NCBI RefSeq assembly: GCF_021375795.1
Contig: NZ_JAEIOI010000001.1
Location: 620,001 to 684,000, forward strand
Length of the DNA: 64,000 nucleotides
Source of the DNA: Pseudomonas anguilliseptica
GTDB taxonomy: Bacteria > Pseudomonadota > Gammaproteobacteria > Pseudomonadales > Pseudomonadaceae
Direction of reading: 5' to 3'
A program made the translations under genes and the position numbers. Positions 43,875-54,658 of the stretch are shown here, piece by piece. Each line of letters starts with the position of its first letter. Position 1 is the stretch's first letter. The notes under the pieces are model-generated. The model did no database searches, was not told the origin of the DNA, and saw nothing but the letters and a program-made list of their open reading frames with translations.

Positions 43875-43888
43875 TTGACCCGCATCAA
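43875..43888 (+). promoter_or_regulatory. ANR/FNR-type box upstream of cioA
   Basis: TTGAC-CCGC-ATCAA is a full match to the TTGAY-N4-ATCAA form recognised by ANR/Dnr/FNR. It lies 142 bases before the cioA start. ANR represses cioAB under low oxygen in P. aeruginosa, so a repressor role fits. No clean -10 is seen 41 bases downstream, which also argues against activation. Confidence 0.65.
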
Positions 43889-52619: not shown

Positions 52620-52862
52620 ATGCCATTGGAACATCACCCGCTCAGCCGCGAGTTTCCTGAATTCCAGACGCAGTTGCGTAGCCTGCTGGCCAGCGACGGG
52701 CACTTTGCCCGGCTGGTTGAGGAATACGATGAACTCGACAAGCGCATCTACGAAGTGGAAAGCGGGCGTGTTGCCATGGATGAAATCCTCCTGCTGGGTC
52801 TGAAAATGCAGCGCGTCAGCCTCAAGGACGAGCTGGCTGACGCTCTGCGCAAGGCACCATAG
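52620..52862 (+). CDS. DUF465 (YdcH-type) small protein, copy 1
   Basis: 80 residues from MPLEHHPLSREFPEFQ, with GAGGA eight bases upstream. DUF465 proteins are short two-helix coiled coils; here HHPLSREFPE and YDELDKRIYEVESGR are the conserved blocks, and KMQRVSLKDELADALR the second helix. Function unknown. The next gene is a paralogue about 84 bases downstream, behind its own ANR-like promoter. Confidence 0.82.
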   Translation: MPLEHHPLSREFPEFQTQLRSLLASDGHFARLVEEYDELDKRIYEVESGRVAMDEILLLGLKMQRVSLKDELADALRKAP

Positions 52863-52872
52863 CGTTGCTGGC

Positions 52873-52914
52873 TTGATCCGGGTCAAGTGCCGGACCCGGC
52901 GCAGGGGATAGTCT
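52873..52914 (+). promoter_or_regulatory. ANR-type class II promoter of the second DUF465 gene
   Basis: TTGAT-CCGG-GTCAA (52873-52886) matches the ANR/FNR box with one change. TAGTCT (52909-52914) is a candidate -10 whose expected start near 52921 is 41-42 bases from the box centre, the usual spacing for activation. The gene starts at 52947 with AAGGAG upstream. Low-oxygen induction is the inference. Confidence 0.65.
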
Positions 52915-52946
52915 GCAGGCAGTGACTATCCCCAAGGAGTGCCAGC

Positions 52947-53231
52947 ATGCACGTTGAACACCATCCGCTGATCAAGGACTTCCCCGAACTGCGCAGCGCG
53001 CTGCATGACCTGCGCATCAGCGACGCCGATTTCGCCCGCCTGGCCGACACTTACGAAACCTTGGACAAGCGTATTTGCCGCATCGAAGCCGGCAATGAAG
53101 TGCTGGCTGATGACGCCCTGTTGTCGCTCAAGCAGGAGCGCGTCGGCCTCAAGGATGACCTCGCGCGCCGACTAAAGCGTGCTGCCGGGCAGTGCTGTGG
53201 CTGCGGTAATGGCTGCAAGGGACAGCGGTAA
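52947..53231 (+). CDS. DUF465 small protein with Cys-rich tail, copy 2
   Basis: 94 residues; MHVEHHPLIKDFPELRSALH and ETLDKRICRIEAGNE align with copy 1. The difference is the C-terminus: after LKDDLARRLKRA it ends GQCCGCGNGCKGQR, with four Cys in a short Gly-rich tail that could bind a metal or sense redox. AAGGAG lies seven bases before ATG. It is preceded by an ANR-like promoter and followed by radA 62 bases on. Confidence 0.82.
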   Translation: MHVEHHPLIKDFPELRSALHDLRISDADFARLADTYETLDKRICRIEAGNEVLADDALLSLKQERVGLKDDLARRLKRAAGQCCGCGNGCKGQR

Positions 53232-53293: not shown

Positions 53294-54658
53294 ATGGCCA
53301 AGGCCAAGCGCATGTATGGCTGCACCGAATGCGGTGCGACCTTTCCCAAATGGGCCGGCCAGTGCGGCGAATGCGGCGCCTGGAATACCCTGGTAGAAAC
53401 CCTGCTTGAAGCCAATGCAGCCACCCCCAGTGGCCGCGCGGGTTGGGCGGGCGAACAAGCGCAGCTCAAGACCTTGGCCGAAGTCAGCGTCGAGGAAGTG
53501 CCGCGCTTTTCCACGGCCTCTGGCGAGCTGGATCGCGTGCTCGGTGGCGGTCTGGTGGACGGCTCGGTGGTGCTGATCGGCGGCGACCCCGGTATCGGCA
53601 AGTCGACCATTCTCCTGCAGACCCTGTGCAACATTGCCACGCGCTTTCCCGCGTTGTACGTCACCGGTGAGGAATCGCAGCAGCAGGTAGCCATGCGCGC
53701 CCGCCGCCTGGGTTTGCCGGAAGACAAGCTCAAGGTGATGACCGAAACCTGCATCGAAAGCATCATCGCCACCGCGCGCCTGGAAAAGCCCAAGGTAATG
53801 GTGATCGACTCGATCCAGACCATCTTTACCGAGCAGCTGCAGTCCGCTCCCGGCGGTGTGGCCCAGGTGCGCGAAAGTGCGGCGCTACTGGTGCGCTTTG
53901 CCAAACAGAGCGGCACGGCGATCTTCCTGGTCGGCCATGTGACCAAAGAGGGCGCGCTGGCCGGGCCGCGGGTGCTTGAGCATATGGTCGACACCGTGCT
54001 GTATTTCGAGGGCGAGTCCGATGGTCGCCTGCGCCTGCTGCGCGCGGTGAAGAATCGTTTTGGCGCGATCAATGAACTGGGCGTGTTCGGCATGACCGAC
54101 AAGGGCCTTAAAGAAGTCACCAACCCCTCGGCAATCTTTCTCACCCGCGCCCAGGAAGAAGTCCCCGGCAGTATCGTCATGGCCACCTGGGAAGGCACTC
54201 GGCCAATGCTGGTGGAGGTGCAGGCATTGGTCGACACCAGCCATATGGCCAACCCGCGTCGCGTCACCCTGGGCCTGGATCAGAACCGTCTGGCCATGCT
54301 GCTGGCTGTGCTGCACCGGCATGGTGGTATCCCGACCTACGATCAGGACGTGTTCCTCAACGTAGTCGGTGGGGTCAAGGTGCTGGAAACCGCCTCGGAC
54401 CTGGCGCTGATGGCGGCAGTGATTTCCAGCCTGCGCAACAAGCCGCTGCCGCATGACCTGCTGGTGTTCGGTGAGGTGGGGCTGTCCGGCGAGATCCGCC
54501 CGGTGCCGAGCGGTCAGGAGCGCTTGAAGGAGGCTGCCAAGCATGGCTTCAAACGCGCCATCGTGCCCAAGGGCAATGCGCCGAAAGATCCGCCCGCGGG
54601 CTTGCAGGTGATTGCCGTAACGCGCCTGGAGCAAGCGCTGGATGCGTTGTTCGAATAG
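53294..54658 (+). CDS. radA: DNA repair protein RadA
   Basis: Branch-migration ATPase in homologous recombination. 454 residues from MAKAKRMYGCTECGATF, with GAGGAG six bases upstream. N-terminal Cys4 zinc finger (CTEC, CGEC). RecA-like ATPase with Walker A GGDPGIGKST and the RadA-specific KNRFG motif. The C-terminal Lon-like domain has HDLLVFGEVGLSGEIRPVP and RAIVPKGNAP. The following mapZ-radA convergence matches P. aeruginosa. A strong terminator follows. Confidence 0.96.
   Translation: MAKAKRMYGCTECGATFPKWAGQCGECGAWNTLVETLLEANAATPSGRAGWAGEQAQLKTLAEVSVEEVPRFSTASGELDRVLGGGLVDGSVVLIGGDPGIGKSTILLQTLCNIATRFPALYVTGEESQQQVAMRARRLGLPEDKLKVMTETCIESIIATARLEKPKVMVIDSIQTIFTEQLQSAPGGVAQVRESAALLVRFAKQSGTAIFLVGHVTKEGALAGPRVLEHMVDTVLYFEGESDGRLRLLRAVKNRFGAINELGVFGMTDKGLKEVTNPSAIFLTRAQEEVPGSIVMATWEGTRPMLVEVQALVDTSHMANPRRVTLGLDQNRLAMLLAVLHRHGGIPTYDQDVFLNVVGGVKVLETASDLALMAAVISSLRNKPLPHDLLVFGEVGLSGEIRPVPSGQERLKEAAKHGFKRAIVPKGNAPKDPPAGLQVIAVTRLEQALDALFE

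Follow-up and report, generated by a model that had tools for sequence, protein, structure and literature searches.

A putative ANR-controlled DUF465 protein with a cysteine-rich tail in Pseudomonas anguilliseptica and its relatives

Proteins of the DUF465/YdcH family (PF04325) fold as a two-helix hairpin. Among the papers listed by searches of the open-access literature, none was found that gives a function for DUF465 or describes a DUF465 protein controlled by FNR or ANR, although regulon tables may list such genes. DUF465 is placed under 'electron transport chain' in an assignment list, along with numerically neighboring DUFs, and a second mention is a genome-context remark. Two better described systems bear a likeness to the locus reported here. 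SlyD-type metallochaperones consist of a folded part followed by a C terminus rich in metal ligands, and the tail of Escherichia coli SlyD is rich in cysteine. Nickel binding is described for a C-terminal domain of the E. coli protein (PMC11198818), and slyD belongs to a predicted core Anr set (PMC6588701). For Pseudomonas aeruginosa, Table 1 of PMC8575079 gives PA4610 as a 'copper transporter' that is upregulated by Anr and under low oxygen, citing Trunk et al. 2010 and Tribelli et al. 2019; PA4610 is not named in the main text of Tribelli et al. (PMC6588701). Other papers call PA4610 a probable copper export protein (PMC7035377) or a copper transporter (PMC8151288), and both PA4610 and PA4611 are among the thermoregulated anaerobiosis genes tabulated in PMC13086522, the Discussion of which describes many of these genes as Anr regulated.

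The window analyzed here, a 64,000-nucleotide stretch of P. anguilliseptica DNA, carries two adjoining DUF465 genes, which are flanked by an EAL-domain gene and radA and are the only two places detected by a DUF465 search of the genome at E values of ≤1. The first gene (52620 to 52862, plus strand), here termed a type, encodes 80 amino acids without a cysteine tail and has no box, its best upstream site having 4 mismatches. The second gene (52947 to 53231, plus strand), termed b type, has an ATG preceded by AAGGAG and encodes a 94-amino-acid protein scoring 42.1 bits against PF04325 (cut-off, 25). This protein ends in the tail GQCCGCGNGCKGQR (residues 81 to 94 of the translation; 53187 to 53228, plus strand), with cysteines at positions 83, 84, 86, and 90, and a fifth cysteine, Cys44, lies in the motif DKRICRIE (codon at 53076 to 53078, plus strand). 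The b gene is, as the original prediction had it, a paralog of the adjacent DUF465 gene with a tail absent from the first copy, and its description there as uncharacterized agrees with the literature searches.

In length, helical hairpin, and a score over the Pfam cut-off, the window protein resembles the DUF465/YdcH family, from which its gene differs by the ANR box and the cysteine tail. It falls below the cut-off of the equivalog model NF008505 (28.2 versus 91 bits), which we take to be the E. coli YdcH-type model. AlphaFold2, run on 74 alignment rows, predicted helices at residues 8 to 11, 13 to 25, 27 to 47, and 55 to 80 (mean pLDDT, 80.0), which form the hairpin characteristic of PF04325; the final two blocks, tail included, had pLDDT values of 57 and 47 and are of low confidence. 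Among solved structures, none of 42 Foldseek matches by fold had an E value of ≤0.001, and the two weak matches by sequence (best E value, 0.0084) were not counted as relatives. Unlike SlyD, the window protein has no recognizable FKBP domain, as no Pfam domain besides PF04325 was found at E values of ≤0.1, and the SlyD-like protein of the window genome (L276) ends in histidine residues, not cysteines.

Upstream of the b gene lies the ANR/FNR-type box TTGATCCGGGTCAA (52873 to 52886, plus strand; center, 52879.5), which has 1 mismatch to TTGATNNNNATCAA and is followed after 22 nt by the −10 element TAGTCT (52909 to 52914, plus strand). With a start predicted from the sequence at 7 nt after the −10 element, near 52921, the box is centered at −41.5, which is the class II arrangement, and the ANR-type box with TAGTCT at activation spacing proposed in the original prediction is confirmed in this geometry. 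A perfect 10-bp inverted repeat, GGGGATAGTC-N10-GACTATCCCC (52904 to 52933), spans the −10 element and extends up to the ribosome site; since exact repeats of at least 8 bp in the same stretch were present in only 5 of the 80 relatives described below, 3 of these with an overlapping arm, the repeat is probably incidental. In total, the window contains 4 sites with ≤1 mismatch, compared with 0.70 expected, and none of 100 shuffles gave as many. The 4.04-Mb genome contains 14 TTGAYNNNNRTCAA sites, including TTGATCCGGGTCAA, versus 4 for a reversed-pattern control. Some of the 14 sites fall within open frames and may have no function, and the genes 3′ of some others encode products that we recognize, presumably, as CioA, CcoN, and a universal stress protein. 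The ANR-type box of the CioA gene, TTGACCCGCATCAA, is located at 43875 to 43888 of the window, 148 nt upstream of this plus-strand gene, which begins at about 44030 and whose product we take from its sequence to be the cytochrome bd-type oxidase subunit. Elsewhere, on contig C21, two boxes (L185, 91481 to 91494; L187, 604675 to 604688) each lie 67 nt upstream of similar genes for 82-amino-acid membrane proteins with histidine-rich ends (MDHSHHPG... and MDHTHHSS...), which to our eye resemble DUF2933-type metal-island proteins.

The window genome also encodes an FNR-like protein of 244 amino acids with an N-terminal cysteine cluster (L165), identified by an HTH_Crp_2 match and by reading its sequence, which we take as the likely ANR of this genome, the cluster supplying the putative iron-sulfur cysteines. 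There is a further strong HTH_Crp_2 match (L166), and PMC6588701 describes the Anr and Dnr consensus sequences as indistinguishable, both of which would suit use of the site by DNR or another CRP/FNR member responding to nitric oxide. However, the genome has no nosZ match, which makes a response to nitrogen oxides less expected, and we consider it very unlikely that such a regulator, and not ANR, uses the site.

The conservation of box and tail was analyzed in 80 relatives, which are the top-ranking ones of 87 matches to one protein query of genome contigs and represent 71 distinct proteins. Within 120 nt, the closest site to the box consensus had 0 mismatches in 24 relatives, 1 in 51, and 2 in 5 (23, 43, and 5, respectively, of the distinct proteins), whereas ≤1 mismatch occurred in 3 of 1,600 shuffles; here, as for the other families below, the shuffles preserve base composition only. 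In 75 of the 80, a TA...T −10 element is spaced from the box by exactly 22 nt, as it is in the window. The CC-containing tail was present in 79 relatives, 24, 51, and 4 of which had boxes with 0, 1, and 2 mismatches, so that tail and box were found jointly in 75 of 80 loci at ≤1 mismatch and in 79 at ≤2. The sole tail-less relative (L081), a Cellvibrionales metagenome-assembled genome (MAG), has a box with 2 mismatches. With these counts and an FNR-like protein in the genome, the ANR-type promoter of the original prediction is well supported by sequence, and on these sequence grounds we regard ANR-type control as strongly supported.

The a-type genes served as a control. They comprised 60 distinct genes, among them that of the window, and none encodes a CC tail. 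A site with ≤2 mismatches was found in 12 of them, which are exactly those divergent to a tailed b gene, and in none of the other 48. At these loci (L035, L038, L039, L045, L127, and seven others), the two divergent genes share the box, and the a gene may there be under ANR control as well.

A profile of the b type matched 148 of 198 Pseudomonadaceae genomes, a count that includes a-type genes, which the profile also detects. Forty Pseudomonadaceae regions were hand-picked from the match lists; most of them scored highly, the genera were varied, and some regions share a genus. Seventeen b genes (L119 to L125, L127, L130 to L133, L141, L142, L151, L152, and L154) have the tail and a box with ≤1 mismatch, and two (L126 and L150) have the tail and a box with 2 mismatches. 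In genus g9, four b genes (L139 and L143 to L145) have a box without the tail, one at 1 mismatch and three at 2, with TAGGCT at 22 nt in all four. In genus g17, four b genes (L115 to L118) have neither, the best site having 5 mismatches. Neither feature is found in three g6 genes (L147 to L149) and the second gene of L133, all of which we judge to be a-position genes. In the six loci of genus g12, the N-terminal two thirds of the protein is barely recognizable as the domain, and both tail and box are kept; the boxes have ≤1 mismatch in five loci and 2 in one, and the tails read GQCCNCGGGCRG in four loci, GQCCNCGGGCGG in L141, and GCCGCGRACKG in L150. A third, YdcH-like DUF465 protein in g9 has a cysteine-rich end, e.g., CCGGCGG (4 of 4 read; L135 to L138). 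These loci have no box with ≤1 mismatch, and a conserved putative TGATCTNCCTCAA site, which has 2 mismatches, is located 62 nt ahead of the likely start of the gene.

A DNA pattern encoding CCGCGxxC has a single match in the window genome, at the tail of the b gene. In a 20-row alignment of tailed proteins, the consensus frequency was 0.72 for residues 83 to 90 versus 0.61 for residues 1 to 80; the rows were picked for having the tail, and the invariance of the cysteines there is partly due to this choice. A conserved cluster of close cysteines, as in cysteine-rich metal-binding proteins, is thus found in 79 of the 80 relatives and is lost or absent in other lineages. The cluster varies among the relatives, with CCGCGNGC, CCGGCCG, and CCGKCSC all represented, and for such variability loose chelation is no worse an explanation than a defined disulfide. 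If the tail were a thiol switch, it would not be a metal site; instead, disulfides or a reaction with NO or sulfide species would alter the hairpin oligomer or its partner when oxygen returns or during nitrogen-oxide respiration. The vicinal cysteines are in line with such a role, as is Cys44, which is kept in 80 of 80 relatives (and also in the tail-less L189 and L190), and ANR timing would suit a protein that is made reduced and oxidized on re-aeration. However, Cys44 is missing from the g12 rows, which keep the tail, so a Cys44-tail disulfide cannot be general, and we consider the thiol switch unlikely.

The box was also found beyond the Pseudomonadaceae. In 40 loci of other Pseudomonadales families, hand-picked from the match list (mostly high scorers, some from the same genus), the DUF465 genes all lack the cysteine tail; a box with ≤1 mismatch precedes 21 of them (in 5 cases a perfect one), and a box with ≤2 mismatches precedes 32, compared with 15 and 131, respectively, of 2,000 shuffles. 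For the rest of the class and for other classes, 5 of 29 and 2 of 12 matches had a box with ≤1 mismatch (8 of 2,050 shuffles), and none of these 41 class- and phylum-level matches has the tail; most of the matches from outside the Pseudomonadales are thus without the box. The neighboring genes in 18 larger other-family regions, compared by eye, mostly vary between loci with few repeats, and therefore the box seems to go along with the DUF465 gene itself. Judged from this distribution, the oxygen switch appears to predate the tail and to occur more widely. The tail is dispensable, because it is absent from the order-, class-, and phylum-level matches and from the g9 and g17 b genes. The original prediction could be refuted by orthologs lacking the box or the cysteines, and it proposed that the two be traced together across genomes; they do go together in 79 of 80 relatives at ≤2 mismatches, but elsewhere the box also occurs independently of the cysteines and fares better than they do, as in the 21 of 40 boxed tail-less genes and the four of g9.

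The same boxed tail-less genes, the 21 of other families and the 4 of g9 (1 to 2 mismatches), favor an explanation in which the hairpin is the functional part and the tail a minor tuning or partner-binding tag, with the b protein joining or replacing the a protein when oxygen is low, e.g., through mixed a-b dimers that act on a respiratory or membrane target. In the phylogenetic tree, the Pseudomonadaceae a and b genes group together (97/97), separate from the outgroup, which also favors this explanation. The tree was built from 74 short rows and came with a warning of too few columns, and L258 and L211 are mislabeled as a type and L146 as outgroup. It draws the a genes inside the b genes; because the forks that place them (81/90, 91/88, and 89/86) are unstarred, the tree gives no more than a suggestion that the a gene arose by duplication of the b gene. 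Furthermore, His6, His20, and His28 are invariant in 16 outgroup rows (alignment A4, from L189 to L227, part of them boxed), where they could form a metal or haem site. In g12, however, the hairpin has decayed while tail and box are kept, which suggests that selection acts on the tail in this genus. We regard a functional hairpin with a minor tail as somewhat unlikely.

In 25 of the 80 relatives, a convergent gene encoding a CopD-family membrane protein lies between the b gene and radA, and two of these neighbors that were tested scored 38.3 and 37.5 bits against PF05425 (cut-off, 32.1). Among the 24 loci with readable upstream DNA (that of L033 was unreadable), the CopD gene has a box with 1 mismatch, centered 62 to 65 nt before the ATG, in 22 and a box with 2 mismatches at 57 nt in 2. 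A GNAT gene takes the place of CopD in 21 of the 80 relatives; it was rejected as a co-regulated partner because no box was found in the 19 loci read (best, 3 mismatches). The remaining 34 loci match neither the CopD nor the GNAT motif, and some of them hold GNAT-like genes, as these neighbor counts are based on short motifs that missed some GNAT genes. In the window, neither a CopD nor a GNAT gene is found beside the b gene, and the only CopD match over the cut-off in the window genome (L083) has no box nearby. NosZ matches were found in 69 of 198 Pseudomonadaceae genomes, 2 of them of the window's genus, and not in the window genome. Co-occurrence with NosZ was rejected as a sign of copper, since many of these genomes belong to g15, the genus of most of the CopD loci fetched, and lineage alone can explain it.

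A P. aeruginosa-type genome (G126) connects these loci with PA4610. At locus L155 of this genome, the gene order is PilZ, radA, CopD, and a-type DUF465, with no b type, and the a type is the single family match of the genome. The PilZ protein is identical to PA4608 at 124 of 125 residues, and therefore we infer by gene order that the CopD gene corresponds to PA4610 and the a type to PA4611; PA4611 was accordingly rejected as an ortholog of the b gene. The L155 CopD gene has a box, TTGATTCCGATCAG, beside radA. PA4610-type CopD is thus similar to the window gene in being boxed and located in a locus beside radA, and it differs in being a membrane protein of an unrelated family that is absent beside the window gene. 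PA4611 is included in the anaerobiosis table of PMC13086522, yet no box lies close enough upstream of the corresponding L155 gene; transcription running on from the convergent CopD gene could be a cause.

The neighborhood of the b gene also bears on whether the box mainly serves radA by read-through, with the small ORF as a passenger. In the window, radA (53294 to 54658, plus strand) begins 62 nt past the ORF on the same strand, and read-through from the b gene promoter is possible. Moreover, Tribelli et al. 2019 report that radA is preceded by an Anr box in both PAO1 and P. syringae (PMC6588701). The box near radA in L155, however, is the one shared with CopD and is equally placed for that divergent gene. 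In addition, many relatives have other, often convergent, genes between the ORF and radA and still keep box and tail, and the DUF465 genes of other families mostly have different neighbors (the 18 regions compared by eye). That the box is mainly for radA is, on this evidence, highly improbable.

The explanation that we tentatively favor, as quite possible though short of probable, is that the b gene encodes an ANR-activated helical hairpin whose flexible cysteine tail binds a soft metal. When oxygen falls, ANR would bind the box at 52873 to 52886 and activate transcription from the class II position at −41.5. The product would be a 94-residue cytosolic DUF465 hairpin that probably forms an oligomer and ends in a flexible four-cysteine tail. 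This hairpin would be an old low-oxygen protein to which the CC-containing tail was added in the Pseudomonadaceae. In the reduced cytosol, the tail would most likely bind Cu(I) or Zn(II), and the metal would be buffered or passed on during low-oxygen growth; in some relatives, the gene of the b protein lies beside an ANR-boxed gene for a CopD-type membrane protein. The metal chemistry is put forward as a hypothesis on the basis of the cysteine pattern, its loose spacing, the persistence of the tail where the domain has decayed, and the boxed CopD gene in some relatives. It is weakened by the dispensability of the tail in some lineages, the absence of a CopD partner from the window, and the unclear link with NosZ.

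In a wider sense, the DUF465 small protein may be a widespread, unrecognized low-oxygen component of FNR/ANR regulation in the Pseudomonadales, with boxes also occurring here and there in other proteobacteria. Within the Pseudomonadaceae it would be a cysteine-tailed metal carrier, with the tail as the selected part in some lineages, working with the ANR-boxed CopD protein in low-oxygen copper handling. We consider this whole proposal doubtful at present; if true, it would give a reason for the listing of the CopD-like PA4610 under Anr. The conservation of the box across families is a strong hint of when the DUF465 protein is needed, and the tail provides a chemical hypothesis for it. An oxygen switch that appears older and wider than the tail makes the DUF465 protein a good target for experiments.
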